The position numbers and the translations under genes were made by a program. Under the pieces are notes generated by a model. The model saw nothing but the letters and a program-made list of their open reading frames with translations, was not told the DNA's origin and searched no databases. Shown here one piece after another: positions 22,714-35,574 of a DNA stretch of 37,672 nt (position 1 is the first letter of the stretch; each line of letters opens with the position of its first letter). The DNA is taken from assembly GCA_003225075.1 (NCBI GenBank), contig QIAP01000034.1:1-37672 (forward strand), given 5' to 3'. The stretch is from Acidobacteriota bacterium (GTDB lineage Bacteria; Acidobacteriota; Terriglobia; Terriglobales; Acidobacteriaceae).

Positions 22714-23406
22714 ATGTCTGCTTCGGTTTCCAAGCCGGCTGCCGCTGCGGTCTTGCGCGGGGATAATGGCGCCTCACATCCCGAGACACGTTTCGACCGC
22801 CGCCTGGCTAAAATCCTGGGACACGCGACTGAAGTTTTCTACGAAAAAGGGTATGAGGGCGCGTCTATGCGCGACCTTTCACGCGCGGCTGGTATGTCGC
22901 TGGCCGGGCTTTACTACTATTTCGAATCCAAAGAGCGTCTGCTCTACCTGATCCAGAAACATAGCTTCAGCACTATTGTGGCGCGGTTGAAGGAAAGGTT
23001 GCGGGACGTCAGCGATCCTGAGCAGCGGGTGCGCGTTCTCATACTGAACCATCTCGATTATTTCCTGGCGAACCAGAAGGCAATGAAAGTGTTGTCGCAT
23101 GAAGACGACGCACTGAAGAACGGGTTTGGAGCCGAGATCGCCGCGATCAAGCGCGGGTATTACCGAATCTGCGTAGATTTGCTCGAAGCTCTGAAGGCGG
23201 CGAAAGGACTAGAATTCAAGAGTCGCACCGCAGTGCTCAGCTTGTTCGGCATGATGAACTGGATTTATACCTGGCACAATCCGCGAGTTGACGGTGATGC
23301 TGAAGAACTGGCCAGCCAGATGGCGGCCATTTTCCTGAGGGGAATTTGCGTATCAAGCTCCGGCAAAGCGGGACATAACAAGAAGAGGGCCGCGGTATCG
23401 AACTAA
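22714..23406 (+). CDS. TetR-family transcriptional regulator (PaaR-like candidate)
   Basis: A 230-residue repressor-type regulator. After a flexible leader of about 25 residues comes the TetR DNA-binding domain: ILGHATEVFYEKGYEGASMRDLSRAAGMSLAGLYYYFESKERLL, with the helix-turn-helix at about residues 50-75. The C-terminal part is the ligand-binding/dimerisation domain, with HLDYFLANQKAMKVLSHEDD, the pattern found in regulators of fatty acid and aromatic-acyl-CoA degradation, so the ligand is probably a CoA thioester. It heads the colinear cluster and its own promoter contains a palindrome. ECH1 follows after 42 bp with an AAGGAG site. No partner or ligand has been shown. Confidence 0.85.
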   Translation: MSASVSKPAAAAVLRGDNGASHPETRFDRRLAKILGHATEVFYEKGYEGASMRDLSRAAGMSLAGLYYYFESKERLLYLIQKHSFSTIVARLKERLRDVSDPEQRVRVLILNHLDYFLANQKAMKVLSHEDDALKNGFGAEIAAIKRGYYRICVDLLEALKAAKGLEFKSRTAVLSLFGMMNWIYTWHNPRVDGDAEELASQMAAIFLRGICVSSSGKAGHNKKRAAVSN

Positions 23407-23448
23407 ATTGTGAAAAAACTAGAGATCTAAATATAAGGAGTCTGAGAC

Positions 23449-24270
23449 ATGGCTACAACAGTGCAGCCGGCCGCCGGCGAGACTACCAAACAACTAGTCA
23501 ACTACCGTGCCGCGGGCGGGGTCGCGGTGATCGAGATGAACGATCCACCGGCCAACACCTACACCTATGAGATGAATCGGCAGCTCGACGAGGCGATCCT
23601 GAAAGCACGCATGGAGAATGACGTGTACGTGATCGTGTTGACTGGCGCAGGGGAGAAATTTTTCTCGGCCGGGGCAAATATCAAGATGCTCTCCAGCGTC
23701 GATCCCACGTTTAAGTACTACTTTTGTCTGCATGCCAACGAAATGCTGCTGCGCCTGGAGCACACCCCGAAGCTGGTGATCGCTGCCATCAATGGACATT
23801 GCGTGGGCGGAGGTCTGGAGATTGCCATGGCAGCCGATATCCGCATCGCGCGCCAGGATGCGGGGAAGATCGGACTGCCCGAAGTGAATCTGGGCGTACT
23901 GCCGGGCACGGGCGGAACGCAGAGGCTCTCACGGCTGGTCGGAAAGAGCAAGGCCATTGAGCTGATGGTAACGGGAAACACTTTCTCCTTCGAGGAGGCG
24001 AAAGAGTTTGGCATCATCAATGACATCTTCGATCGCGACGGCTTCATGGAAAACGTCTTGGAGTACGCGCGCCAGTTTTGTCCGCCGAACAAGGCCGCCA
24101 AAGCTGTGGGAAGAATCAAGCGCGCGGTGCAAACCGGCTGGGAGATTCCCATGGAGTCCGCACTGGCGGTGGAACGTGAGAATCAGCAACTGCTCTTCCA
24201 GAGCGAAGACGCGAAGGAAGGGCTGGCAGCGTATGTAGAGAAACGGCCCGCGGTGTTCAAGGCGAAGTAG
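23449..24270 (+). CDS. Enoyl-CoA hydratase/isomerase family protein (crotonase 1)
   Basis: A 273-residue crotonase-fold enzyme acting on acyl-CoA thioesters. The oxyanion-hole phrase AGANIKML, the loop INGHCVGGGLEIAMAAD with E124, and GLPEVNLGVLPGTGGTQRL with E145 carry both glutamates used for water addition in true enoyl-CoA hydratases. The C-terminal helices place EVERENQQLLFQSEDAKEGLAAYVEKRP, normal. AAGGAG lies eight bases before the ATG. Likely hydration of an enoyl-CoA or ring-opened aromatic intermediate. It is first after tetR and close to the aldehyde dehydrogenase; in the box pathway the enzyme at this point would be BoxC, but BoxC is about twice as long. Confidence 0.88.
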   Translation: MATTVQPAAGETTKQLVNYRAAGGVAVIEMNDPPANTYTYEMNRQLDEAILKARMENDVYVIVLTGAGEKFFSAGANIKMLSSVDPTFKYYFCLHANEMLLRLEHTPKLVIAAINGHCVGGGLEIAMAADIRIARQDAGKIGLPEVNLGVLPGTGGTQRLSRLVGKSKAIELMVTGNTFSFEEAKEFGIINDIFDRDGFMENVLEYARQFCPPNKAAKAVGRIKRAVQTGWEIPMESALAVERENQQLLFQSEDAKEGLAAYVEKRPAVFKAK

Positions 24271-24337
24271 TACGAGAAGTAGTAGGAAACAATGGATGCG
24301 AGGGCGTTTCGCCCATGCACCGTCTCACGAGTGACGA

Positions 24338-25804
24338 ATGATTGCAGCTACTAAAACGAAAGTCTTGCCGGGGCGATTGCTGATCGGCGGACAGTGGGTT
24401 GACGGCTCGAAGAAATTCGACATCGTCAATCCGGCGACCGGCGAGGTGCTTACTGAGATCGCGGAAGCGTCACGCGAAGATGTTGACCGCGCGGTGCAAG
24501 CGGCTCGTCGTGCTTTTGAGGATCGCGGCGGGGCATGGCGCAAGATGTCGGCCAGTGAGCGAGGGAAGCTGATCTGGCGGCTGGCGGATTTAGTCGACAC
24601 GAACATCGAGGAACTCGCCGAGCTAGAAACTCTGGATAACGGGAAACCGATTTTCGAGTCGCGTTACGTGGACATGCCGATGGTGATTGACGTCCTGCGC
24701 TACTACGCTGGCTGGGCGACGAAGATACACGGCGAGACAGTCAATACTTTCGAGACGGCTTTTACTTACACCCTGCGGGAGCCGGTAGGAGTTGTAGGGC
24801 TGATCATCCCGTGGAATTTTCCATTGTTGTTGGCTTCGTGGAAGCTCGGTCCGGCGCTGGCCTGCGGCTGCACCATAGTTTTGAAACCTGCCGAGCAGAC
24901 GCCGCTCACCACACTGCGGTTCGGAGAACTCGCGGTTGAGGCGGGATTGCCTGCGGGGGTACTGAATATCGTCACCGGCGGGCCGGAGACCGGGAAGGCA
25001 ATCGTCAGTCATGCGGGGATCGACAAGATCGCGTTCACCGGTTCGACCGCGGTCGGCAAAGAGATCATGCGGGGCGCGGCGGATACATTGAAGCGCCTCA
25101 CGCTGGAACTGGGCGGCAAATCTCCCAACATCGTTTTTGCGGATTCCAACATTGATAACGCCGTGAAGGGCGCGATCAATGGCATTTTCTATGGCAAGGG
25201 CGAAGTGTGTAATGCCGGATCGCGCTTGTTCGTCGAAAATAAAGTACGCGATGAATTTCTCGAAAAGCTGGTTGGACGGGCCAAGAAGATGCAGCCCGCC
25301 GATCCGCTCGATCCGAAGACGCGCCTGGGAGCGATCGTCAGCCAGGAACAGATGCAGACTGTGCTCAGCTATGTGGAGGCCGGGAAAAAAGAGGGGGCGA
25401 AGCTGATTGCCGGAGGAAACCGCGTCAGCGTGGATGGGGGCAAAGGATTCTTTCTGGAACCAACTATTTTTGGCGAGGTGACCAACGACATGAAGATCGC
25501 ACAGGAAGAAATCTTCGGGCCGGTGCTGGCCACGCTGAGTTTTGACGACGTTGATCAAGTGATCGATCTGGCCAATCGCAATCAGTACGGTCTGGCGGCG
25601 GCAGTATGGACACGCGATATCAAGAAGGCGCACAACGTTTCCCGCCAGCTCAGGGCCGGCACAGTCTGGATAAACACGTATGGATTGATGGATGCGGCGT
25701 TACCTTTTGGAGGCTACAAGAGTTCCGGATTCGGCCGTGAGTTGAGCAAGCATGCGATTGAACACTACACGGAAGTAAAAACGGTTTGGTTGAACATGGG
25801 GTAG
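24338..25804 (+). CDS. NAD(P)-dependent aldehyde dehydrogenase
   Basis: A 488-residue ALDH of the soluble betaine-aldehyde type. Landmarks: PWNFPLLLASWKLGPALACG (substrate/oxyanion Asn), KPAEQTPL, FTGSTAVGK, ELGGKSPN with general base E257, and the nucleophile C291 in GEVCNAGSR. It would oxidise an aldehyde to its acid, or a semialdehyde in a CoA-thioester. In the box pathway BoxD oxidises 3,4-didehydroadipyl-CoA semialdehyde; being next to a BoxB homologue makes a BoxD-like role attractive, although BoxD itself belongs to a different ALDH branch as far as I recall. A short hairpin (GGGCG-TTT-CGCCC, 24302-24314) precedes the ATG. Confidence 0.92.
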   Translation: MIAATKTKVLPGRLLIGGQWVDGSKKFDIVNPATGEVLTEIAEASREDVDRAVQAARRAFEDRGGAWRKMSASERGKLIWRLADLVDTNIEELAELETLDNGKPIFESRYVDMPMVIDVLRYYAGWATKIHGETVNTFETAFTYTLREPVGVVGLIIPWNFPLLLASWKLGPALACGCTIVLKPAEQTPLTTLRFGELAVEAGLPAGVLNIVTGGPETGKAIVSHAGIDKIAFTGSTAVGKEIMRGAADTLKRLTLELGGKSPNIVFADSNIDNAVKGAINGIFYGKGEVCNAGSRLFVENKVRDEFLEKLVGRAKKMQPADPLDPKTRLGAIVSQEQMQTVLSYVEAGKKEGAKLIAGGNRVSVDGGKGFFLEPTIFGEVTNDMKIAQEEIFGPVLATLSFDDVDQVIDLANRNQYGLAAAVWTRDIKKAHNVSRQLRAGTVWINTYGLMDAALPFGGYKSSGFGRELSKHAIEHYTEVKTVWLNMG

Positions 25805-25860
25805 GGAAGTCGCTCCGGAGCGTGCGATCTTTAGCATTGCGTCGCTCGGACTTTCGCGCG

Positions 25861-25910
25861 ACTCTCCTATCTTCGGCGCCAAGTGAAGGCGCCTCAGGAT
25901 GACAATTCAT
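25861..25910. repeat. GGCGCC-palindrome intergenic repeat, degraded
   Basis: Between the aldehyde dehydrogenase and the BoxB-like gene. On the minus strand it reads TTGTCATCCTGAGGCGCC..., a phrase that matches dispersed repeats I recall from acidobacterial genomes. The palindrome is GGCGCC-7 bases-GGCGCC (25875-25880 and 25888-25893). No gene role. Confidence 0.4.
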
Positions 25911-25922
25911 TAACGAGGGCAT

Positions 25923-27098
25923 ATGCCAGGAAAAGTTGCAAGGATCGGGACATTTAGTGATTGGGTAGGTTTATTCGACGATTGGCGCAAGGAAATTGGC
26001 GTCAATCGCGACGAGATCGCCAGCTTCAAGTTCGACACGCTCTACGGGGCCATTGAGACCGAAGAAATCCAGTTTGGCGCCTTTAAAGGACGTCGCAAGT
26101 GGGAGAACCTGCGCCAGGTGCCGACACAGCAAATGCGTGACGCGCTGATGAATCTGATTATCTATCAGGGAGACACTGAGTTTGCCAGCGTTGAGCAGCA
26201 GCGCAACCTGTTTGAATCCGCGCCCACGGACTGGGACCGCAAGGCAATTATGCGGGTGATGATTGAAGAAATGCGCCACGGTTGGCAGATGTGCGCCTTG
26301 CTGGTGGATCATTTTGGCTACTCTGGCAAAGTGGAGGCGCAGAAGATGCTGGAGCGCCGGGCGTTTGACAATAAACGTCTGCTTGGGGCCTTCAATGTCG
26401 ATGTGGACAACTGGATGGATTTCTTCACATATACGGACTTCGTCGACCGGGACGGAAAATTTCAATTGCAGATGCTGAAGTATTCGGCTTTCGCGCCGCT
26501 GGGACGGTCTATGTCATACATGCTGCGGGAAGAAGCCTTTCACATGGGCACCGGCAACGACGGCCTGCGCCGCATTGTGGAAGCTGGAATGATTCCGGCG
26601 TGGCTGATCCAGAAATATCTTAATAAGTGGATTTCCAGCTCCTACGATTTGTTCGGAACCGACAATTCGTCATCTGCGCATTGGGCCTATGTTTGGGGAA
26701 TTAAGGGGCGATACGACGAGCCGAGGAACGCGCAGGATGCGAAGCTGGATGAACTCAACGACTACAACCGTATTTTGTATCACGATGAAGTCGCTGGACT
26801 AATCGAACGTTTCAACACCGCGCTGAAACCGGGCGAGCCGAAGCTCTACGCGCCCAATATCAAGTTCAATCGCGCAATCGGCCGTTATGCCGGGCAAAAG
26901 TTCCATGCCCAAACCGGCGAGCCGCTCGACTATAAGGCCTACGAGCAGCACCTGAAAGATTACATGCCGAGTGCAGAAGACAGAAAGCTGCTGCTCGAAA
27001 TCATCGCCAATGAAAAGAAATGGATTGCACCCAAGCAGGGAGCTCGCGATCCGCTGATGACCATCGCGGAGCCGCGCAAGTCGGCGATTAACCTTTAG
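25923..27098 (+). CDS. BoxB-like diiron benzoyl-CoA epoxidase homologue (short)
   Basis: A 391-residue protein of the ferritin-like diiron fold. Blocks shared with BoxB, the oxygenase component of benzoyl-CoA 2,3-epoxidase: YQGDTEFASVEQQRNL (E86), VMIEEMRHGWQM (E116, H119), FFTYTDFVDRDGKFQLQ (acidic residue near 175-177) and MLREEAFHMGTG (E204, H207), i.e. all the expected iron ligands. BoxB is about 470 residues; the difference is in the N-terminus and a C-terminal middle segment. PaaA (phenylacetyl-CoA epoxidase) is a more distant relative. It would use O2 and external electrons to epoxidise the ring of an aroyl-CoA in the cytoplasm. No BoxA reductase is seen in the window. The ATG is preceded by GAGGGCAT. 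Confidence 0.82.
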   Translation: MPGKVARIGTFSDWVGLFDDWRKEIGVNRDEIASFKFDTLYGAIETEEIQFGAFKGRRKWENLRQVPTQQMRDALMNLIIYQGDTEFASVEQQRNLFESAPTDWDRKAIMRVMIEEMRHGWQMCALLVDHFGYSGKVEAQKMLERRAFDNKRLLGAFNVDVDNWMDFFTYTDFVDRDGKFQLQMLKYSAFAPLGRSMSYMLREEAFHMGTGNDGLRRIVEAGMIPAWLIQKYLNKWISSSYDLFGTDNSSSAHWAYVWGIKGRYDEPRNAQDAKLDELNDYNRILYHDEVAGLIERFNTALKPGEPKLYAPNIKFNRAIGRYAGQKFHAQTGEPLDYKAYEQHLKDYMPSAEDRKLLLEIIANEKKWIAPKQGARDPLMTIAEPRKSAINL

Positions 27099-27149
27099 CG
27101 GACGCAGGAAGGGCATCTATGCCGCTAAGTTTCTTCGACCAAAGGCAAC

Positions 27150-27959
27150 GTGACCACCACTCCGGCGGTTGACATCTCGAAAAAGACTCCGCCAACCAGC
27201 GAATCCCGTGGATACACTCTCGGCGAGCTGATGGTGGCTAGCGCTGCGCGCGAAATCCATGACGGAGAGATCGCGTTTGTCGGGATGCGGCTGCCACTGC
27301 TCGCCTTTGTAGTGGCCAAGAAGACTCACGCGCCAAATGCAGTTGGGCTATTTGAAAACGGCGTGATTCGCGCGACACCCGCTTCCGAGCTGATTTACAC
27401 CATGGCTGATCCAGCCAACATTCTGGGCGCAACGCAGTGCCTTGACATGATGGGAGTCATGAGCTTGCTGCAATCAGGACGCGTGCATTTAGGGTTCCTC
27501 GGTGCGGCTGAGGTAGACCGCTTCGGAAACTTGAACTCGACTGAAGTACGCGGGCCAAAGGGCGTGGTACGTCTGCCCGGCTCCGGTGGAGCTTGTGATA
27601 TCGCCTCTCTGGCGCAGCGTTTCGTTGTACTGCTCGAACACCGGAAGCAGCGCTTACCGGAGCGCGTTTCGTACATCACCAGTCCGGGAAATGGTGACGG
27701 CCGCGGCTGGCGAAAGCGGGTGAGACTGCCGCGGGGCGGGCCATCAGCGGTGATTACCACTAAAGCCGTTTTGCGTTTTGCAGACGACGGCGAGGCGTAC
27801 CTGGCTTCGCTTCATCCCGGTGTCGAGTTGGATGACGTGCTGGCCGATACCGGTTGGAGGCTGCGCGTTGGAGACAGCATGGTCTCTACTGCTGAGCCAA
27901 CTGCCGCGGAACTGAAAGCGATTCGGGATTACGATAAAGATGGTTTTTGGACGAAGTAG
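27150..27959 (+). CDS. Class I CoA-transferase subunit B (glutaconate CoA-transferase-like)
   Basis: A 269-residue subunit resembling GctB of Acidaminococcus. HAPNAVGLFENG aligns with GctB's APDCHIIVESG; E69 is then the catalytic glutamate that forms the CoA thioester, and RLPGSGGACDIA..., YITSPG and VITTKAVLRF are in the matching positions. GTG start at 27150 (AAAGG just ahead). With the A subunit (29231) it would swap CoA between two carboxylates, or hydrolyse a CoA ester like the steroid-ring enzymes IpdAB; the presence of the ENG-type Glu favours a true transferase. The A subunit is separated by a crotonase and a membrane-protein gene, an unusual order. Confidence 0.85.
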   Translation: MTTTPAVDISKKTPPTSESRGYTLGELMVASAAREIHDGEIAFVGMRLPLLAFVVAKKTHAPNAVGLFENGVIRATPASELIYTMADPANILGATQCLDMMGVMSLLQSGRVHLGFLGAAEVDRFGNLNSTEVRGPKGVVRLPGSGGACDIASLAQRFVVLLEHRKQRLPERVSYITSPGNGDGRGWRKRVRLPRGGPSAVITTKAVLRFADDGEAYLASLHPGVELDDVLADTGWRLRVGDSMVSTAEPTAAELKAIRDYDKDGFWTK

Positions 27960-28009
27960 ATAAATATCATGCCGAAGCCCGCTGGCGAGTGTATCCAGGC
28001 CATACGAAC

Positions 28010-28795
28010 ATGGCGACGCAAGCATTAACTAAATATTCGCGGCTCACCCTTGACCTTCAGACGCCGGTCGCGCGCATCTCTTTGCAGAATCCTCCTCTGA
28101 ACGTCATCGACATCCCCATGATGGAAGAACTGGGGCAGGCGATGGCGGAGATCGAGTCGCGTCACGACATATCCGTTATCGTCCTCAAGGGCATGGGCAA
28201 GACTTTTTCGGCTGGAGTTGACGTCGCTGCCCACACTCCGGATAAAGTGCAAAGCATGCTGGCGAAATTCCATGCCGTGATAAATGTTCTGGTGACTACT
28301 AGAAAAGTGACGATCGCCAGTGTGCATGGCCATTGTTTAGGCGGAGGCGCGGAACTGGCGATGGTCTGTGATCTGGTGTACACCGCCGAGTCCGCGCAAT
28401 GGGGATTCCCCGAGATCAAACTGGGATGCTATCCGCCAGTGGCCTGCACTGCATTGGCGGCACTGATTGGTCAAAAGAACGCGGCGGACTTAATCCTAAC
28501 CGGACGCAGCATCTCCGGCAAAGAGGCAGCCAGCATGGGTTTGGCGAACGGCGCGGTGGCCGAGGATCAAGTGGACGGGGTTGTCGAAGAATCGGTCAAT
28601 AATCTGCTGAAATTGAGTCCTGCGGCTTTGGCGGTAACGAAGAAAGCTTTCTATGTCTGGGATTCGATTCACTTTGATAAAGGCCTGGCGCGCGCAGAGA
28701 AAGTTTATTTCGAAGAACTGATGCAGACCCAAGATGCGCACGAGGGCATCAACGCGTTCCTCGAGAAGCGGGAGCCGAAGTGGAAGGGCAAATAG
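28010..28795 (+). CDS. Crotonase-family dienoyl-CoA hydratase (Dch-like, cyclohexa-1,5-diene-carbonyl-CoA hydratase type)
   Basis: A 261-residue crotonase; I start it at the ATG at 28010, rejecting an upstream start that overlaps the previous gene. Catalytic glutamates E115 (GGGAELAMVCD) and E135 (FPEIKLGCYPP) are present. Several phrases match Dch of anaerobic benzoyl-CoA degraders: PPLNVIDIPMMEEL, FSAGVDVAAHTPDKVQSML, GCYPPVA in place of GTPG, LILTGRSI and the C-terminal EELMQTQDAHEGINAFLEKREPKW. Dch adds water to cyclohexa-1,5-diene-1-carbonyl-CoA. That match is from recalled sequence. Its ring-reduced substrate would require a benzoyl-CoA reductase, which is not in the window. Confidence 0.8.
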   Translation: MATQALTKYSRLTLDLQTPVARISLQNPPLNVIDIPMMEELGQAMAEIESRHDISVIVLKGMGKTFSAGVDVAAHTPDKVQSMLAKFHAVINVLVTTRKVTIASVHGHCLGGGAELAMVCDLVYTAESAQWGFPEIKLGCYPPVACTALAALIGQKNAADLILTGRSISGKEAASMGLANGAVAEDQVDGVVEESVNNLLKLSPAALAVTKKAFYVWDSIHFDKGLARAEKVYFEELMQTQDAHEGINAFLEKREPKWKGK

Positions 28796-29238
28796 CGCCG
28801 CCACCGGCGGACAAGCAGCTTGCAAAGACGCGTCGCCCCAGACCTGCTCATTTGATGTGCGGGACGCCTTTCTGGGGATTCGCCGGGTTGCTGGCTTGTT
28901 CCTATTTAGCCTACATATCTTTTGCCCGGGTGCGTCGAGGCGATTTTGATTGGCCGCGCGATGTCTGGTCCTTGGTTACTTATGCAATCTGGGTGCTGCT
29001 CATGGCCGGATTGATAGGCGAGACCCGATGCTGGCGAGAACGTATTTTCTTCACACTGATCCTGGTGAACTTCACGCTGGGGTTCGTGTTTGCCGCATGG
29101 GGCAATATTCCCGATGCGTGGGCTCGTAACGCCAGAGAAATTGCTGCGGGATTGTGGGCACTAGCTGCGGTGGTCAGCGGAGTGTTGATGTTTTCCTCGG
29201 GACGAGGATTGAAACGGGGAGCAGGTAGACATGTCTAA
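28780..29238 (+). CDS. Four-helix membrane protein of unknown function
   Basis: A 152-residue protein (GTG start at 28780, 16 bp inside the crotonase end; the ATG at 28855 is an alternative). After a basic tail, four hydrophobic segments are predicted (about residues 28-48, 62-81, 87-107, 121-141), with Arg and Asp between. It shares no domain I can name. Placement between CoA-transferase subunits, with an overlap at both ends, means it is transcribed and probably translated with them. A transporter or sensor role cannot be inferred. Confidence 0.6.
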   Translation: MEGQIAPPPADKQLAKTRRPRPAHLMCGTPFWGFAGLLACSYLAYISFARVRRGDFDWPRDVWSLVTYAIWVLLMAGLIGETRCWRERIFFTLILVNFTLGFVFAAWGNIPDAWARNAREIAAGLWALAAVVSGVLMFSSGRGLKRGAGRHV

Positions 29239-30139
29239 GCTGCTCACCATGCGCGCCGCCATCGCGGAACTCGTGCAAGACGGCGCAAATGTCGCTCTCG
29301 GCCTGCAATTGGAGCAGATGATCCCATTCGCGGCGGGACACGAAATCATCCGGCAGAAGAAGCGCGACCTCACGCTTATTGGTCCAATTTCTGACATTCT
29401 CTTTGATCAATTGATTGGGGCGGGATGCGCTAAAGAAATCGTCGCGGCCTGGGTCGGCAATGTGATGATGGGCTCAGCCTACAACTTCCGTCGCGCGGTG
29501 GAACAGGATGGAATGAAAGTTTTCACCCTGACAAATTTCACCGTAGCGCTGGCCTTGCAAGCAGGAGCGATGGGTGTGCCGTTCCTGCCGACGCGCACCG
29601 CGCTGGGCAGCGATATCACGAGAGGGAACCATTTCTTTCACCATATATTGTCGCCTTTCGAGGCGAAAGAACCACTTTGGGCGGTGCGCGCGCTAAACCC
29701 TGATGTCACGATTGTTCACGTGCAGCGCGCCGACCGCGAAGGTAACGCGCACTGCTGGGGGAATTTCGGGGTGATGGTGGAAGGGGTTCGCGCGGGGAAA
29801 CGAGTTATCGTGGTGGCGGAGCAGATCGTCGAACCAGAGGTCATCACAAGCGATCCTAATCGGACGGTGATTCCAGGCTTTCTGGTGAACGCGGTGGTCG
29901 AGTGCCCTTACGGAGCGCATCCCTCGCCGGTACAGGGATATTACAAGCGCGACGACGCGGCCTTCCGTCAGTATCACGAACACACCAAAACCAAGGCAGA
30001 CAGTGACGCTTGGCTGGAGCGTTGGGTGAATGGAGTGGAGGATCGCCGCGCGTACATGAATCAATTGGGTGGCTGTCGCGTGGAGGAATTGGGCGTGAAG
30101 CGGCATGCCTATGCGGCGCAGACGGATTATGGGTACTGA
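29231..30139 (+). CDS. Class I CoA-transferase subunit A (glutaconate CoA-transferase-like)
   Basis: A 302-residue subunit related to GctA/IpdA: MSKLLTMRAAIAELVQDGANVALGLQLEQMIPFAA at the front, GVPFLPTRTALGSDI in the middle, DVTIVHVQRADREGNAHCWG and the C-terminal VECPYGAHPSPVQGYY, all at the same places as in GctA. It pairs with the B subunit at 27150. In CoA-transferases the A subunit helps hold CoA. The start is the ATG at 29231 that overlaps the membrane-protein stop by eight bases. Substrate unknown: aroyl, ring-opened or dicarboxylic acids are all possible. Confidence 0.85.
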   Translation: MSKLLTMRAAIAELVQDGANVALGLQLEQMIPFAAGHEIIRQKKRDLTLIGPISDILFDQLIGAGCAKEIVAAWVGNVMMGSAYNFRRAVEQDGMKVFTLTNFTVALALQAGAMGVPFLPTRTALGSDITRGNHFFHHILSPFEAKEPLWAVRALNPDVTIVHVQRADREGNAHCWGNFGVMVEGVRAGKRVIVVAEQIVEPEVITSDPNRTVIPGFLVNAVVECPYGAHPSPVQGYYKRDDAAFRQYHEHTKTKADSDAWLERWVNGVEDRRAYMNQLGGCRVEELGVKRHAYAAQTDYGY

Positions 30140-30143
30140 ACCA

Positions 30144-30171
30144 GCGACTGGCACTTAGCAATTCGCAACTC
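30144..30171. repeat. Heptanucleotide tandem array between CoA-transferase A and rhodanese
   Basis: Four 7-mers in a row: GCGACTG, GCACTTA, GCAATTC, GCAACTC. Same period as the arrays at 15981, 30547 and 34684. Confidence 0.55.
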
Positions 30172-30222
30172 ATAGTAGGCCAGATACAGACCAAATGCCG
30201 AGTGGTGTCCGAAGCAGCAAAC

Positions 30223-30546
30223 ATGGACTTCGAAATCGGTGCCGGACAGGTCAAAGCCATGCTAAAGCGTGGCGAGAAGTTCACTCTGCTTGACGTGCGT
30301 GAGCCGTGGGAATGGGAGAAGTCCAGCATCGCGGGATGCAAGCAGATGCCCATGGGCGACGTGCCAGCGCGGGCGCGTCAGGAATTGAATCCGCAGGATC
30401 ACATTGTGGTGCTATGCCATCACGGCGTGCGCTCTTTGAGCGTGACCAACTGGCTGCGGCAACAGGGATTCGAGAAAGTACAGTCTGTACGCGGCGGCAT
30501 CGATGGGTGGGCGCGGACGGTGGATCCGAAGGTGCCGCTGTATTGA
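30223..30546 (+). CDS. Single-domain rhodanese (sulfurtransferase)
   Basis: A 107-residue rhodanese-fold protein starting at the ATG at 30223 (a GTG at 30202 would add seven residues; the frame stays open further up but without homology). LLDVREPWEWEKSSIAGCKQMPMGDV is the CH2A-type front, and the active-site loop is C65-HHGVRS (VVLCHHGVRS), followed by VRGGIDGWA. It carries sulfur as a persulfide. Its position directly before the molybdenum-enzyme genes suggests it might supply sulfur to the molybdenum cofactor; this is inference, as no dedicated Moco sulfurase or XdhC chaperone is seen nearby. Confidence 0.88.
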   Translation: MDFEIGAGQVKAMLKRGEKFTLLDVREPWEWEKSSIAGCKQMPMGDVPARARQELNPQDHIVVLCHHGVRSLSVTNWLRQQGFEKVQSVRGGIDGWARTVDPKVPLY

Positions 30547-30574
30547 GCATTCAGCACTCAGTTGTTAGTGGCGA
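30547..30574. repeat. Heptanucleotide tandem array upstream of the Mo-enzyme genes
   Basis: 7-mers GCATTCA, GCACTCA, GTTGTTA, GTGGCGA follow the rhodanese stop (30544-30546) directly and end 21 bp before the ATG of the iron-sulfur subunit. Confidence 0.5.
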
Positions 30575-30595
30575 AGCTGGATACTTGAAAAAACC

Positions 30596-31087
30596 ATGAA
30601 GAAAGAACTAATCGAGCTTCGCGTTAACGGCCGGACCCACGAGTTGGCGCTCGAGCCCAGCAAACTGCTCTTGGATACGCTGCGCGAAGATCTTCAACTC
30701 ACAGGATCGAAGCGCGGCTGCGACGACTCTTCCTGCGGTGCTTGCACGGTCCAGGTGGACGGCATTCCCGTGCTCTCCTGCACCTTGCTGGCCGCAAGTT
30801 GTGAAGGCCAGGAGATCACCACAGTTGAAGGAGTGAGTGAGCACGGCAGCCTGGCTGCCATTCAGAAGGCTTATGGCGACTGGGGAGGCGCGCAGTGCGG
30901 TTTCTGCACGCCCGGCTTCATGATGACGGTGAAGCACCTCATGGCCGAGAATCCCGACCCAACTGAACAGGAAGTTCGCGCCGCGCTGAGCGGGAATTTG
31001 TGCCGCTGTACGGGATACAGCCAGATGTATGAGGCGATCAAGGCTGCGATTGAGGCCGAGCAGAAGGGAATGGCGGCTGCGAAATGA
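30596..31087 (+). CDS. Molybdenum hydroxylase 2Fe-2S subunit (HcrC-like)
   Basis: A 163-residue electron-transfer subunit of xanthine-oxidase-family enzymes. The first 2Fe-2S cluster (plant ferredoxin type) is bound by C42, C47, C50 and C62; the second by C101, C104, C136 and C138 in CGFC...CRC. Both sets are complete. It would carry electrons between the FAD/4Fe-4S subunit and the Mo subunit. Overlaps the large subunit by four bases (ATGA), so the two are translationally coupled. In 4-hydroxybenzoyl-CoA reductase this is subunit gamma (HcrC). Confidence 0.93.
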   Translation: MKKELIELRVNGRTHELALEPSKLLLDTLREDLQLTGSKRGCDDSSCGACTVQVDGIPVLSCTLLAASCEGQEITTVEGVSEHGSLAAIQKAYGDWGGAQCGFCTPGFMMTVKHLMAENPDPTEQEVRAALSGNLCRCTGYSQMYEAIKAAIEAEQKGMAAAK

Positions 31088-33660
31088 ATGAATTCAGCGT
31101 AATCGGAAAACGCATCGCCATGGTAGACGCGGCCGGCAAGACAACCGGCGCCGGCAAATATACCGACGACCTGTCCGTCCCCGGCATGTTGGTTGGCAAG
31201 ATTCTGCATTCACCGTATCCGCACGCGCGCATCAAGCGCATTGCTACCAGCCGGGCAGCGAAACTCGATGGCGTGGTCGCGGTGGTTACGGGAAAAGATG
31301 CGCGTAATCCCTACGGCATTCTGCCAGTCGGCCATGACGAACACGCTCTAGCGCTCGACAAGGTGCGCTATGTGGGCGATAACGTGGCCTGCGTCGCAGC
31401 TGTTTCGGAAACGATTGCCGAGAAAGCGCTCGAATTAATCGACGTCGAATACGAACTTCTTCCCGGCTATTTTGATCCCGAAGAATCGATGAAGGCCCAG
31501 ACTGACCTCATCCACGACAACAAGCCGCACAACATTGAAAAGGACTACCACCACGTTTTCGGTGATCCCGACAAAGCGCTGGCCGAAGCTGACTGCGTGA
31601 TGGAAGGGCGCTTCATCGCCAACGAGGTTACGCACGCTGCGATGGAGCCGCACTCGACGCTGGCAGCGTTCGAGATTGATTCGCAAACCGGCAAACCGGG
31701 GCGTCTAACGGTGTGGTCGTCTACCCAGGTCCCCTATTATTTGCAGCACAAATTATCGCTGGTGCTGGAGATGCCAATGGCGCAGATTCGCGTCATCAAG
31801 CCGTTGGTCGGCGGTGGCTTTGGGGGCAAGAGTGAAGTCATCCCGCTGGAGATCATTGCGGCGATTGCGGCCCGTGCGGCTCGTGCCCCAGTCAAGATTA
31901 CCTACACGCGTGAAGAAGTTTTCTGGGCGCATCGTGGACGACCACGCACCATCATTGATCTGAAAACTGGAGTGAAGAAAGACGGAACCATTACCGCGGT
32001 CAAGGCGCGGGTGGTACAAGACGGCGGCGGATACTGCTCCTACGGCGTAGTGACGATTCTTTACTCCGGAGCATTGCTGGGCGCGCTTTACGACATCCCC
32101 AATATCGGCTACGACGGTTACCGTGTGCTCACCAATAAGCCCGCCTGTGGCGCCATGCGCGGGCATGGCACGGTGAACGTGCGCTTCGCTTTCGAATCCC
32201 AACTGGACGAGATTGCCCTGAAGCTCAATCTGGATCCTGCGGAAATCCGTCGCCGCAATCTCCTGAAGCCGCCTTGCGTCACGGTCAACAATCTGCGGGT
32301 GCAGAGTTATGGCCTGCCCGAATGCATCGAGCAAGTAGTTGAACGATCGAAATGGAGAGAGCGCAAAGGTAAGCTGTCTCGCGGACGTGGCCTGGGAATC
32401 GCGTGCAGCCATTATGTGAGCGGCGCGGCCAACTCCATTATCCGTTCCGATATGCCCCACTCGACCGTCAACATCAAGATTGATCGGGATGGCGGTGTGG
32501 TGGTTTACACCGGGACGTCGGAAATTGGTCAGGGATCGGACACGATGACCGCGCAAGTCGCAGCCGAAGTGCTGGGATGCTCGCTGGGACGGGTAAAGAT
32601 CGTCGCTGCCGACACCGATTTGACTCCGATTGATATTGGTTCCTATTCCAGCCGTGTGACTTTCATGGCGGGAAATGCGACTTTGCGCGCTGCAGAAGAA
32701 GTGAAGAAGCAGATTGCTCTAGCGGCTGCGCGCAAGATGGATTGCGCGCCTGAGGAGTTGGTGTTCCGAGACGATTTGATCGTCCGCGGAGATGACTTCG
32801 GGAAAGGTTTCGCGGGCGAGGGCGCCCGCGCCACACAATCAGAGGCGTCTGTTAGTGGACACGTGGAAGGTCAGATCCTGCGCGGCTCTTTGCAGCAAAA
32901 GCGTAAAGATGAAGGTCCAAAAGATCAGATGACATTTGAGGAGGCGGTAGTGGCGGCCATTGATTCTCACGGCGCACTGACCGGGACCGGTTCCTACGCT
33001 CCGCCCTTGGAAGCCCGAGGCGGCAAACATAAAGGTGCGGGTGTCGGTCCATCTCCTGCATATTCGTATTCGGCGCAAGTGGCAGAAGTGACTGTGGACG
33101 AGGAGACAGGCGAAGTCACAGTTCACAAAGTCTGGGCAGCGCACGATTGCGGGCGCGCGTTGAACCCTGTTTCTGTCGAAGGTCAGATCATCGGCTCCGT
33201 CTGGATGGGCATGGGCCAGGCGCTCACCGAAGAAATGGTCTGGAAAGATGGAATGCTGATGAATCCCGGCATGCTCGAATACCGTAGCCCGTCGTCGGTA
33301 GAATCGCCGGAAGTCGAACCAATTATCGTCGAGAGCATTGATCCCGAAGGACCGTTCGGCGCCAAGGAATGCAGCGAGGGTTCTCTCGCCGCGACGATTC
33401 CCGCGATTTCCAATGCGATTTATGATGCCGTCGGAATCCGCTTGCATGAATGTCCATTCACTCCAGAGCGGGTGCTGGCAGCCTTGCGAGCGCTAAAAAA
33501 GTCAAAACATATCAATCTGACCGAGGGAGTCGACCCGGCTGCGCCAACCCGCTTTCGCGAACATGGCGGCGCATTGTGTTTCCGTGGCAAAGGACCTGAA
33601 CGGCATGCGCTCGATCCTGGCCGGCGGGAAGCGACGGTTGAAGCCGGAGGTGATGATTGA
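31084..33660 (+). CDS. Molybdenum-cofactor-binding catalytic subunit, 4-hydroxybenzoyl-CoA reductase-like (HcrA-like)
   Basis: An 858-residue xanthine-oxidase-family catalytic subunit; HcrA of Thauera has about 770. Moco contact regions are present: VGGGFGGKSE, PACGAMRGHGTVNVRFA, GSYSSRVTFMAGNA and, near the C-terminus, GPFGAKECSEGS, where E765 is in the place of the catalytic glutamate (the usual VGEG reads CSEG here). The extra length is in a segment from about residue 573 to 650, which includes an in-frame REP-type palindrome (32811-32840, residues 576-586), and a C-terminal tail of about 45 residues. It would reductively remove the para-hydroxyl of 4-hydroxybenzoyl-CoA to give benzoyl-CoA. 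An oxidative hydroxylase role is the alternative. Confidence 0.85.
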   Translation: MNEFSVIGKRIAMVDAAGKTTGAGKYTDDLSVPGMLVGKILHSPYPHARIKRIATSRAAKLDGVVAVVTGKDARNPYGILPVGHDEHALALDKVRYVGDNVACVAAVSETIAEKALELIDVEYELLPGYFDPEESMKAQTDLIHDNKPHNIEKDYHHVFGDPDKALAEADCVMEGRFIANEVTHAAMEPHSTLAAFEIDSQTGKPGRLTVWSSTQVPYYLQHKLSLVLEMPMAQIRVIKPLVGGGFGGKSEVIPLEIIAAIAARAARAPVKITYTREEVFWAHRGRPRTIIDLKTGVKKDGTITAVKARVVQDGGGYCSYGVVTILYSGALLGALYDIPNIGYDGYRVLTNKPACGAMRGHGTVNVRFAFESQLDEIALKLNLDPAEIRRRNLLKPPCVTVNNLRVQSYGLPECIEQVVERSKWRERKGKLSRGRGLGIACSHYVSGAANSIIRSDMPHSTVNIKIDRDGGVVVYTGTSEIGQGSDTMTAQVAAEVLGCSLGRVKIVAADTDLTPIDIGSYSSRVTFMAGNATLRAAEEVKKQIALAAARKMDCAPEELVFRDDLIVRGDDFGKGFAGEGARATQSEASVSGHVEGQILRGSLQQKRKDEGPKDQMTFEEAVVAAIDSHGALTGTGSYAPPLEARGGKHKGAGVGPSPAYSYSAQVAEVTVDEETGEVTVHKVWAAHDCGRALNPVSVEGQIIGSVWMGMGQALTEEMVWKDGMLMNPGMLEYRSPSSVESPEVEPIIVESIDPEGPFGAKECSEGSLAATIPAISNAIYDAVGIRLHECPFTPERVLAALRALKKSKHINLTEGVDPAAPTRFREHGGALCFRGKGPERHALDPGRREATVEAGGDD
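32811..32840 (+). repeat. 30-bp palindromic REP-like element, copy 2, inside the Mo-subunit coding region
   Basis: Stem CGCGGGCG / CGCCCGCG, loop AGGG, then CCACACAATC, the same 8-4-8-10 design as at 14722-14751. The five differences are all transitions, and four of them are paired so that the stem is kept. It is translated as part of a FAGEGARATQS stretch and does not break the frame. Confidence 0.75.
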
Positions 33661-34640
33661 GCCTCCCGGAATTCAAACTGCTGCGGCCTCGCACGGTAGA
33701 CGAAGCGACCGGCTATCTCGCAAAGTACGCCAGCAATGTTCGTGTGCTTGCCGGAGGGACTGACCTGATTCCATCCATGCGGCAGAAGCTGTTTGAGCCT
33801 CGGTACGTGCTCGACATACGACATATTCCTGAGTTGAAGGGAATCCTTCGCCGAATCGAAGCAGGCGTTGAAATCGGCGCATTGACCACGCTCACTGCCG
33901 TGGAGCGTTCCGATTTTCTGCGCCAGCATTATCCAGTGCTCACGGAGGCTGCGCGCACAGTGGCTTCGCCACTTCTCCGCAACATGGGCACGATCGGCGG
34001 CAACATCTGTCTGGACACACGCTGCTTGTGGTACAACCAGTCACTCACCTGGCGAAAAGGATGCGGCTTCTGCATCAAGAAAGACGGCGACTTATGTCAC
34101 GTTGCTCCTGGCGGCAGCAAATGCTGGGCCGTGTTTTCCGGGGATACGCCGCCAGCACTACTTTGCCTGAATGCCGAAATTGAGATTGCCAGCCCTGCGG
34201 GAAGACGCCGAGTGCCGTTGCGCGAGTTCTACACCGGCCTTGGGGATGAGTACCGCAAGCTGAACCCGAATGAATTGCTCACGCGGGTTTTCCTGCCGGA
34301 ATCGAGTGCGGATTATATCGGGATATATCGCAAACTGCGAGTTCGCGGTTCGATTGATTATCCGCTGGCTGGAGTTGCCGTCGTGCTAAAGCGTTCGAAC
34401 GGGCACGTGGCCGATGCGCAGTTGGCAATTACCGCTGTGAATCCAGCCCCGCTGCTGGTCAAAGGAGTGTTGCGGTTGCTGGAGGGAAGGCCGATTGACG
34501 AGTCCGCGGCAGAGGCGGTCGGTGATCTCGCTGCGAGGACGGCGAAGCCGCTGACAACGTCGGCGCTGACCCCCGAGTATCGGCGGGAGATGATTCGGGT
34601 GTTCACGAAACGGGCGGTTCTAGCTGCCGCGACCAACTAG
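33657..34640 (+). CDS. FAD- and 4Fe-4S-binding subunit, 4-hydroxybenzoyl-CoA reductase-like (HcrB-like)
   Basis: A 327-residue FAD-binding subunit. The FAD motif is VLAGGTDLIPSMRQ with GTIGGNICLDTRC. Between the two FAD halves is the insert that only HcrB-type proteins are known to carry: C123, C139, C147 and C156, with spacings of 16, 8 and 9, identical to those of C122, C138, C146, C155 of Thauera HcrB that ligate a [4Fe-4S] cluster. That cluster couples low-potential ferredoxin to the reductive dehydroxylation. The start is a TTG overlapping the stop of the Mo subunit (TTGA). The most specific marker that this is an HBCR-type enzyme, not a plain hydroxylase. Confidence 0.9.
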   Translation: MSLPEFKLLRPRTVDEATGYLAKYASNVRVLAGGTDLIPSMRQKLFEPRYVLDIRHIPELKGILRRIEAGVEIGALTTLTAVERSDFLRQHYPVLTEAARTVASPLLRNMGTIGGNICLDTRCLWYNQSLTWRKGCGFCIKKDGDLCHVAPGGSKCWAVFSGDTPPALLCLNAEIEIASPAGRRRVPLREFYTGLGDEYRKLNPNELLTRVFLPESSADYIGIYRKLRVRGSIDYPLAGVAVVLKRSNGHVADAQLAITAVNPAPLLVKGVLRLLEGRPIDESAAEAVGDLAARTAKPLTTSALTPEYRREMIRVFTKRAVLAAATN

Positions 34641-34683
34641 CTGCAAATACCCAATGCCGTAATTGTGACCGCAGGCGACTAGC

Positions 34684-34711
34684 AACTGAGAACCGAGAAC
34701 TGACAACTGAA
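34684..34711. repeat. Heptanucleotide tandem array before the amidohydrolase gene
   Basis: Four 7-mers: AACTGAG, AACCGAG, AACTGAC, AACTGAA. The clearest of the four arrays; it ends 20 bp before the start codon of the next gene. Confidence 0.65.
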
Positions 34712-34731
34712 GCGATAAGTCACAATCCACC

Positions 34732-35574
34732 TTGATCACCGACTGCCACATCCACATCCAGCCGATTGAGATGTTCAAGCCCCAGGCGCTGGAGCTGATG
34801 AAAAAGAAGCGGACGAACTTCGACGACGTGGCCGAATTCTGCCGCTCGCCTAAAGCTTTCCTAAAGCATCTGGACGCCTCGGGGATTGACCGGGCAGTGT
34901 TGATCAACTACGTGGCCCCAGAAGTAATCGGGTTTACGTCCGGCGTAAATCAATTCGTTGCTGATTACGTTAAAGAGAATCCCAAGCGGCTGATCTCCTG
35001 TGGCAGCCTGCATCCGCGGCACACCACCAATGTTCTCGCCGATGTTGAGCAATTACTGCGGCTAGGAATTCGCATGATCAAGATTCATCCTCCGCACCAA
35101 TTGCTGTTTCCTAACGATTATCTGACCGGTGTTAAGGAACTTGAGATGATCTACCGCGCAGCCGAAGCCAATGCTATTCCGGTGATGTTTCACACCGGAA
35201 CATCGATTTTTCCCGGCGCGCGCAACAAGTACGGGGACCCGATTTATATAGACGATGTCGCGGTAGATTTTCCCAAGATGAAAATATTGCTGGCGCATGG
35301 CGGGCGTCCATTGTGGATGCACACCGCGTTCTTTCTAGTGCGACGCCATCCCAATGTTTATCTCGATATCAGCGGGATTCCGCCCAAGACTCTGCTTAAC
35401 TACTTTCCGCGCCTGGACGAGATCGCGCACAAGACACTTTTTGGAACCGATTGGCCCGGACCGGGCGTGCCGGACATCAAGAAGAACGTCGATGACTTCA
35501 TGGCTTTGCCGCTCAGCCCCGAAACCCGAGAGCAAATCCTTAGCCATACGGCTCTTAATATATGGCCTGCATAG
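34732..35574 (+). CDS. Amidohydrolase-2/ACMSD-type metal-dependent hydrolase or decarboxylase
   Basis: A 280-residue TIM-barrel metalloenzyme of the amidohydrolase_2 family. Metal-binding HxH near the start (DCHIH), then KIHPPHQ, VMFHTGT, LLAHGGRP and FGTDWPG with the final Asp, all in family order. Members include aromatic-acid decarboxylases (ACMSD, resorcylate type) and lactone hydrolases. The TTG at 34732 is the start, since the HxH strand must begin there; a CACAAT box lies about six bases upstream and may be a leaderless promoter. It is at the end of the aromatic cluster, but the heptad array and this box mean it may have its own promoter. Confidence 0.82.
   Translation: MITDCHIHIQPIEMFKPQALELMKKKRTNFDDVAEFCRSPKAFLKHLDASGIDRAVLINYVAPEVIGFTSGVNQFVADYVKENPKRLISCGSLHPRHTTNVLADVEQLLRLGIRMIKIHPPHQLLFPNDYLTGVKELEMIYRAAEANAIPVMFHTGTSIFPGARNKYGDPIYIDDVAVDFPKMKILLAHGGRPLWMHTAFFLVRRHPNVYLDISGIPPKTLLNYFPRLDEIAHKTLFGTDWPGPGVPDIKKNVDDFMALPLSPETREQILSHTALNIWPA

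Follow-up and report, generated by a model that had tools for sequence, protein, structure and literature searches.

A conserved acidobacterial gene cluster combining a short BoxB-type protein, two small crotonases and a 4-hydroxybenzoyl-CoA reductase-like enzyme

Gene content of the locus

The stretch of DNA analyzed here, referred to as the window, is the entire contig QIAP01000034.1 of an Acidobacteriota bacterium (37,672 nucleotides; contig C69 of draft genome G000, assembly GCA_003225075.1, which comprises 4.79 Mb in 259 contigs and is 97.6% complete). It carries a set of 13 genes, all on the + strand between positions 22714 and 35574, that places a BoxB-like diiron protein and two small crotonases beside a 4-hydroxybenzoyl-CoA reductase-like enzyme, HcrCAB. 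The genes follow one another in the order TetR, ech1, aldehyde dehydrogenase (ALDH), BoxB-like, CoA-transferase B, Dch-like, a small open reading frame (ORF), CoA-transferase A, rhodanese-like, HcrC, HcrA, HcrB and Amidohydrolase_2:

22714..23406, +, TetR-family regulator of 230 residues (PF00440, PF17932)
23449..24270, +, ech1, single-domain crotonase (PF00378)
24338..25804, +, ALDH with a proposed BoxD-like role (PF00171)
25923..27098, +, short BoxB, diiron protein of 391 residues (TIGR03225 at 227.8 bits, ligands, predicted fold)
27150..27959, +, CoA-transferase, B-type subunit, GctB-like (PF01144)
28010..28795, +, Dch-type crotonase of the dienoyl-CoA hydratase family (in a clade with Dch encoded beside genes of benzoyl-CoA reductase type)
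28780..29238, +, small ORF of 152 residues, hydrophobic by eye, without a Pfam match
29231..30139, +, CoA-transferase, A-type subunit, GctA-like (PF01144)
about 30223..30546, +, rhodanese-like protein of about 107 residues (PF00581), start taken from a codon-usage gene call
30596..31087, +, HcrC-like [2Fe-2S] subunit (PF01799, PF00111)
31084..33660, +, HcrA-like molybdopterin subunit of 858 residues (TIGR03194, over its cut-off)
33657..34640, +, HcrB-like FAD subunit with a 4Fe-4S insert (TIGR03195; 1RM6_B)
34732..35574, +, Amidohydrolase_2 protein (PF04909)

An alternative start is possible for the Dch-type ORF at a TTG codon at position 27947. A preliminary description of this DNA, made from the sequence alone, had named a regulator, an epoxidase, a hydratase, a reductase, a CoA-transferase, crotonases, an ALDH and an amidohydrolase in this interval, and every one of these gene types was found, on the + strand throughout. 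Several details required correction. The crotonases number two in total (ech1 and the Dch-like enzyme) rather than Dch plus two more; both CoA-transferase subunits are present, standing apart on either side of the Dch-like gene; the three reductase subunits are all encoded, in the actual order C-A-B; and the rhodanese-like gene and the 152-residue ORF had been overlooked.

Conservation of the cluster

Contigs of named genomes were scanned with the BoxB-like protein, which confirmed 272 places; the best 80 of these were kept as loci, all under Acidobacteriota names such as Terriglobales, Acidobacteriaceae and Candidatus Sulfotelmatobacter. Gene maps drawn with a codon-usage caller lack or truncate some genes; the BoxC of L172, for instance, was found only by search. 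Many contigs are short, and the number of cluster genes detected per locus ranged from 3 to 13 with a median of 9; the order and strand of these genes showed no exception in the 80 fetched loci. Conservation of gene order in other genomes is thus borne out, and the cluster is confirmed as a real and conserved arrangement.

Individual genes were counted over the loci whose contig flank reaches far enough. The ech1 gene is present in 66 of 66 loci and the Dch-type crotonase in 59 of 66, at 54-74% identity to that of the window; TetR follows with 53 of 59, the amidohydrolase with 42 of 50, the rhodanese with 46 of 59, HcrA with 33 of 50 and ALDH with 31 of 66. CoA-transferase B and A are found in 18 of 66 and 17 of 62 loci, respectively, and the 152-residue ORF has counterparts of 39-60% identity in part of the loci. 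The core therefore consists of ech1, short BoxB and the Dch-type crotonase, while the presence of ALDH, the CoA-transferase and HcrCAB varies. In loci lacking ALDH or CoA-transferase B, no substitute gene was found, and the gaps are closed (medians of 108 and 57 bases).

The arrangement extends beyond the family of the window. In another family of the order, L144 holds a TetR-ech1-ALDH-BoxB-Dch-TPR-HcrCAB run at 41-71% identity, and partial copies occur in the same family (L145 without Dch, L179 without Hcr) and in more distant genomes.

A short form of BoxB

In the searches of the relatives and of the phylum, the term short BoxB covers proteins at least 50% identical to that of the window whose match begins in the N-terminal part or which are fragments at a contig end; partial short BoxB are present in G001, G024, G036 and G045. 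The two forms differ clearly in length, with 369-396 residues for short BoxB (n=107) and 465-484 for canonical BoxB (n=44; 5th to 95th percentile in both cases). They also separate in a search of the phylum, where short BoxB reach at least 384 bits and canonical BoxB 135-184, although for one canonical protein a portion of the core does show 50% identity. On TIGR03225, three other short BoxB scored 231.8-248.2 bits and three canonical BoxB 726.9-757.2; these genes of each kind were scored with the model, and the remaining short and canonical labels rest on BLAST.

Despite this distance, the metal site and the predicted fold of short BoxB are BoxB-like. Residues E86, E116, H119, D175, E204 and H207 align with positions 120, 150, 153, 211, 240 and 243 of BoxB 3PER, the diiron ligands, and a set of 43 sequences that includes both BoxB forms shows no variation at any of the six. 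The predicted model (pLDDT 90.8) retrieved BoxB chains as all of its eleven best PDB matches in Foldseek, with TM values of 0.84-0.86 on the query, including the structure 3PM5 with benzoyl-CoA. In a comparison of short BoxB of at least 340 residues with canonical BoxB of at least 440, 87 of the 155 columns that are near-invariant in 43 canonical BoxB are kept in 108 short BoxB. The BoxB-like epoxidase of the preliminary description therefore stands with respect to the predicted fold and the six ligands; the cut-off for canonical BoxB was missed, and the protein belongs to a separate short form.

A tree built from 62 proteins unites canonical BoxB in a single clade (SH-aLRT 100), which a branch of 2.45 changes per site sets off. 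Short BoxB is not resolved as one clade (two changes), and the canonical form may thus have originated either beside the short proteins or from among them. This tree and the crotonase tree described below are quick searches with SH-aLRT as the only measure of support.

Compared with the BoxABCD pathway, the cluster shares the predicted BoxB fold, all six ligands and, presumably, CoA-thioester intermediates. It differs in that its BoxB is about 80 residues shorter and scores far below the TIGR03225 cut-off, that the cluster has two single-domain crotonases and no BoxC, that Hcr adjoins, and that BoxA is nowhere over its cut-off. The paa pathway, as described (PMC4498308), combines diiron epoxidation of an aryl-CoA with subsequent crotonase-type enzymes, as is proposed for the present cluster; however, PaaA chains match short BoxB at only 29-32 bits, and PaaB, PaaC, PaaD, PaaE and PaaZ are not among the family matches of the cluster.

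A third BoxB-like group of 15 loci (L256-L270; about 411-456 residues, 27-35% identity to the window's protein, 108-128 bits in the phylum search) was set aside. A GNAT-like neighbor accompanies it in 8 of the 15 loci, and L256 also has a proline dehydrogenase; the L256 protein, the one member scanned, has no NCBIfam match at 1e-20. Separately, NuoF-like proteins occur near ech1 and short BoxB in L133, L134, L137 and L139 and are candidates for a reductase of short BoxB. L137 and L139 additionally encode a small protein of iron-sulphur type (PF01257 in L137; judged by sequence in L139, which has no Pfam match).

Crotonases of the cluster

Among the crotonases compared, ech1 is the closest to the N-terminal domain of BoxC. 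On a profile built from 42 BoxC proteins, ech1 of the window scored 101.6 bits and 102 ech1 proteins had a median of 100.6, whereas other crotonases (n=21) had a median of 33.5 and a maximum of 73.8, and Dch-type proteins (n=87) a median of 25.8. The match falls on the N-terminal BoxC domain; both ECH Glu motifs are kept, and the block F-x-AGANI-x-ML...FK-x-x-FC...NE is common to ech1 and BoxC.

The Dch-type enzyme scored 161.7 bits on TIGR03189, below the cut-off of 292.5, and 173.2 on a plain enoyl-CoA hydratase model. Three Dch encoded beside genes of benzoyl-CoA reductase (BCR) type in the phylum also lie below the TIGR03189 cut-off (178.4, 186.2 and 243.6 bits). In a tree of 59 rows, the window protein falls in a clade of 17 together with such Dch (SH-aLRT 99), and a one-residue deletion is common to all Dch-type rows shown, most of which have PPV-A beside it. 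The Dch-like hydratase that had been proposed thus finds its support in this clade and not in the family cut-off. The locus L166, for example, shares with the window the clade, the deletion and a score below the cut-off; it also encodes ADH and another crotonase, and its Bcr proteins show 65-71% identity to BcrCBAD of L138. The window genome differs in having no detected BCR to make the Dch substrate.

A 4-hydroxybenzoyl-CoA reductase-like enzyme

HcrCAB looks like a genuine 4-hydroxybenzoyl-CoA reductase (HBCR), as judged from family models and solved relatives. HcrA reached 1017.4 bits on TIGR03194, over the equivalog cut-off of 994.55, and its best PDB match, 1RM6_A of the Thauera HBCR, scored 794.6 bits, a lead of 520 bits over the next (274.9). 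HcrB scored 323.6 bits on TIGR03195, below the cut-off of 404.55, and HcrC 182.5 on TIGR03193, below 257.8, with the model of another family slightly better at 188.1. HcrB matched 1RM6_B at 232 bits, and all four Cys of the 4Fe-4S insert align with chain B of 1RM6, which confirms the insert that had been claimed for the FAD subunit. Family scores, solved relatives and the insert, rather than a tree, also uphold the earlier assignment of the molybdenum enzyme to the HBCR type instead of a non-aromatic hydroxylase.

In an alignment of HcrB-like proteins of 240-420 residues from loci L101 onward, the insert is present in 19 of 22, counting the window and treating the overlapping L167 and L168 apart. 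It is missing in three proteins (L200, L213 and L214), each of which adjoins a ligase. In the window genome, this locus (L200:8047-13919, on C6) pairs a benzoate-CoA-ligase-family protein with a xanthine-oxidase-family molybdenum enzyme lacking the insert, a pair that recurs in L213 and L214 and that might belong to a furoate-type pathway. The ligase, a family match of 618.6 bits on G000:C6, was considered as a feeder for the cluster and not counted, because it adjoins this different molybdenum enzyme.

HBCR is known from anaerobic metabolism. The window enzyme shares with HcrABC of Thauera aromatica (1RM6) an HcrA over the equivalog cut-off and the four-Cys 4Fe-4S insert in HcrB. It differs in that its HcrB and HcrC lie below their cut-offs, that HcrA has extra residues, and that the genes sit with a BoxB-type gene and not with BCR. 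The alignment of HcrA (31084-33660) with 1RM6_A is split into two stretches by an insertion of about 40 residues, and HcrA is extended by a further 50 or so at its C-terminus.

Aldehyde dehydrogenase, CoA-transferase and amidohydrolase

No BoxD model is among the family matches listed for the ALDH. In 5 of the 44 canonical BoxB loci, a relative with 59-63% identity to it is encoded at most two genes away from BoxB, as expected for an enzyme of the aldehyde step. The CoA-transferase subunits match GctAB best in the PDB, with 149.7 bits for A (1POI_A) and 117.2 for B (1POI_B), and the Glu of 1POI B that we take to be the catalytic residue aligns with the ENG motif of subunit B. A ring hydrolase of the IpdAB type (6CO6) was rejected for this pair, as the corresponding scores are 70.1 (6CO6_A) and 22.3 bits. 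The Amidohydrolase_2 protein has no NCBIfam match at 1e-40.

BoxC, BoxA and benzoyl-CoA reductases

The absence of a benzoyl-CoA reductase and of full-length BoxC, described earlier for the cluster, holds across the whole window genome. Genome-wide searches found no BoxC (E 1e-40), no HGD-D and hence no class I BCR within the 97.6% completeness, and no AFOR/BamB (AFOR_C) of class II BCR; no other known enzyme that attacks benzoyl-CoA is therefore seen there. BoxA has no match in G000 either, which says little, since none was over the cut-off in any of 61 related genomes, the four with canonical BoxBC and 14 controls alike.

Four of these 61 relatives (G023, G051, G055 and G058) have canonical BoxB, and BoxC was found in precisely these four and in none of the 28 that have short BoxB. 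Similarly, in a phylum sample of 396 genomes BoxC accompanies canonical BoxB in 64 of 65 cases, and it was found in 0 of the 20 short-BoxB genomes and 0 of the 15 with the third group; two further genomes have BoxC without a BoxB match. BoxC and short BoxB are mutually exclusive in our samples.

Class II BCR was considered for the distant short BoxB that lie near NuoF-like and CCG proteins, and found no support, AFOR_C occurring in 0 of 61 relatives, a result that covers only G052 and G056 among the genomes with such genes (NuoF-like/CCG genes in L133, L134, L137 and L139; CCG alone in L136, L142, L271 and L273). In L138 (8823-15845, G187:C100), BcrCBAD is followed by GNAT, hemerythrin and short BoxB on one strand; B, C and D of this class I BCR are over their cut-offs, and A lies below at 562.2 against 578. 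Organisms with both short BoxB and BCR may be facultative with both routes, or short BoxB may protect the BCR. A divergent BCR-like set, with Amidohydrolase_2, a BadH-like SDR, BcrC- and BcrB-like proteins and short activases, is present in L143 and L160-L163, and the one scanned, L143, scores below the BCR cut-offs.

Association of Hcr with ring-attacking genes

HcrA was found in 26 of the 34 relatives with BoxB or HGD-D and in 0 of the 27 without (Fisher 1.6e-10, a value that, like all other statistics here, ignores relatedness). Within the family of the window, the corresponding figures are 16 of 21 with BoxB and 0 of 16 without. In the phylum sample, Hcr is present in 49 of the 85 genomes that carry BoxB of the short or the canonical form (17 of 20 and 32 of 65, respectively) and in 37 of 311 others, an odds ratio of 10; these 37 divide into 9 of 15 genomes with the third group and 28 of 296 without a BoxB-like match. 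When only HcrA of at least 58% identity are considered (n=13 in the phylum sample), 8 occur with short BoxB, 2 with canonical BoxB and 3 with neither, two of the last three having HGD-D. At the level of single loci, CoA-transferase B accompanies Hcr in 12 of 33 loci and is found in 0 of 17 without it (p 0.004), which suggests that it belongs to a hydroxybenzoate branch.

Three genomes with canonical BoxB are of particular value here. In G023, from the window's own family, the cluster reads ech1-ctB-dch-ctA-rhod-hcrCAB-amh without short BoxB and ALDH; BoxC-BoxB lie on another contig, and no HGD-D was found. G055 has TetR-ech1-ALDH-dch-rhod-hcrCAB-amh, again without short BoxB and with BoxC-BoxB on another contig. 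In G058 (L175:3848-12461, G058:C6), BoxC-BoxB-HcrC-HcrA-x-HcrB form one run in which BoxB and BoxC are over their cut-offs. Additionally, 10 of the 44 canonical BoxB loci encode a relative of ech1 (59-70% identity) no more than three genes away from BoxB, and in 7 of them the two genes are adjacent. Together with the ALDH relatives near canonical BoxB, these links are our main reason for placing the cluster with box-type pathways.

Proposed route and alternative explanations

On balance, we lean toward the interpretation that the cluster encodes an O2-dependent, box-type benzoyl-CoA route fed by 4-hydroxybenzoate through HcrCAB, with ech1 and/or the Dch-type crotonase replacing BoxC. The GctAB-like CoA-transferase, where present, or an activity encoded elsewhere would supply 4-hydroxybenzoyl-CoA, which HcrCAB would reductively dehydroxylate to benzoyl-CoA. 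Short BoxB would then place one oxygen atom across the ring, and ech1, the Dch-type crotonase or both may take over hydration and ring opening, given that the usual opener, BoxC, is absent. The ALDH would oxidize the resulting semialdehyde, and the product would enter beta-oxidation. Here we infer the substrate of short BoxB, the use of O2, the ring-opening enzyme, the substrate of the CoA-transferase and the order of the steps. Of the similar route outlined in the preliminary description, the association of HBCR with BoxB-type ring attack stood up to the genome comparisons and to the arrangements in G023, G055 and G058, and the remainder is plausible.

BoxC has two crotonase domains and frees BoxB from product inhibition (PMC4498308). 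We infer that ech1 and/or the Dch-type protein perform this role for short BoxB. More tentatively, and with more doubt than belief, the cluster may represent a second, BoxC-free box form in which a compact BoxB of about 370-395 residues works with ech1 and with a Dch that was taken over from the anaerobic pathway, the two crotonases standing in for the two-domain BoxC, and in which a reductive dehydroxylase is coupled to the system.

A number of observations weigh against this interpretation. With 227.8 bits against a TIGR03225 cut-off of 499.1, the window protein falls outside canonical BoxB by score, and its ligand helices carry changes fixed in short BoxB (P>F87, Q>R111, N>M113, G>M117, L>G120, A>Q122, F>G209 and V>T210); the substrate may therefore differ. 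The cluster contains no reductase for short BoxB, no aryl-CoA ligase was identified for it, 35 of 66 loci have no ALDH, and in 17 of 50 Hcr is missing from the surrounding 10 kb, although some genomes, such as G002, carry it elsewhere. The role of the crotonases is also less clear-cut than BoxC replacement implies. Both ech1 and Dch-type genes occur in genomes with canonical BoxBC, and the Dch-type gene persists in G023 and G055, so neither is simply a BoxC substitute; for ech1, a plain substitution is weakened further by its position near canonical BoxBC. Conversely, most of the 44 canonical BoxB loci have no nearby ech1 (34), ALDH (39) or Hcr (43, the G058 run being the only one with it). 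G055 and G058 also encode HGD-D (the BCR genes of G058 are those of L166), so Hcr there could feed BCR, and HcrA of G058 (826.0 bits) and G023 (990.2) both lie below 994.55. Of the 28 Hcr genomes without a BoxB-like match, 17 have HGD-D and 11 do not, G268 with BoxC being among the latter. Nor is short BoxB restricted to genomes free of BCR, as HGD-D is present in 6 of the 28 relatives that have it and in 12 of the 20 such genomes in the phylum sample. Finally, Hcr has been reported with BoxB and BoxC in SAR324 bins and read differently (PMC4782131): as far as the relevant portion of that report goes, Hcr and box genes share one group of bins, as in our case; however, BoxB there stands with BoxC, and Hcr is not assigned to that cluster but interpreted as a side path to 4-hydroxybenzoate.

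The residue changes next to the iron ligands, together with the long branch that sets off canonical BoxB, the lack of any short BoxB beside BoxC in the samples and the 17 loci without nearby Hcr, would also fit an explanation in which short BoxB is an O2-dependent CoA-ester monooxygenase acting on a substrate other than benzoyl-CoA, for instance a benzoyl-CoA with a hydroxyl group or a dienoyl-CoA that the Dch-type enzyme also handles, in which case the route is not a box variant. We consider this unlikely, if still the most serious rival, as G023 and G055 have clusters without short BoxB in genomes that hold canonical BoxBC, and relatives of ech1 and ALDH are found near canonical BoxB (10 and 5 of 44 loci). 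The order of genes in L138, where short BoxB follows BcrCBAD, GNAT and hemerythrin on one strand, raises another explanation, namely that short BoxB mainly consumes O2 and shields an O2-sensitive Hcr or BCR in a pathway that is itself reductive; the frequency of HGD-D in short-BoxB genomes of the phylum sample (12 of 20, against 9 of 30 further genomes outside both the BoxB and the Hcr lists) points the same way. Yet neither the window genome nor 22 of 28 short-BoxB relatives have HGD-D, loci without Hcr retain ech1-BoxB and mostly Dch, and crotonase and ALDH partners would be needless for a scavenger, which makes this account improbable.

We give equally little weight to the idea that a BCR pathway has been lost, with Hcr, Dch and CoA-transferase as its relics or parts, next to an unrelated oxygenase operon. 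It would account for the clade that the Dch-type gene forms with Dch beside BCR-type genes and for the many loci from which Hcr and the CoA-transferase are missing, but the Dch-type gene, at 59 of 66 loci and 54-74% identity, is steadier than ALDH or Hcr, and G002 retains a Dch-type gene beside BCR genes as well as another linked to Hcr.

If the box-type interpretation is correct, an enzyme of anaerobic type makes benzoyl-CoA and O2 opens the ring. Aerobic and anaerobic benzoyl-CoA routes are found side by side in Betaproteobacteria (PMC9765128, PMC10803450). No description of a cluster like the present one was found in the open-access PMC literature, a scope in which subscription papers mostly do not fall; its new elements are a short BoxB that occurs in the absence of BoxC, the pair of small crotonases beside it and the coupling to HBCR. 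The cluster offers a testable hybrid route, with HBCR working together with an oxygenase, and provides a marker, short BoxB plus ech1 without BoxC. To our knowledge, little has been established about lignin-type aromatic breakdown by soil and peat Acidobacteriota.

Other features of the window

Upstream of the cluster, an ORF of the DHDPS family at 20369-21487 matches its Pfam model in two stretches, the first of which is followed by a stretch rich in Ser, Gly and Ala.

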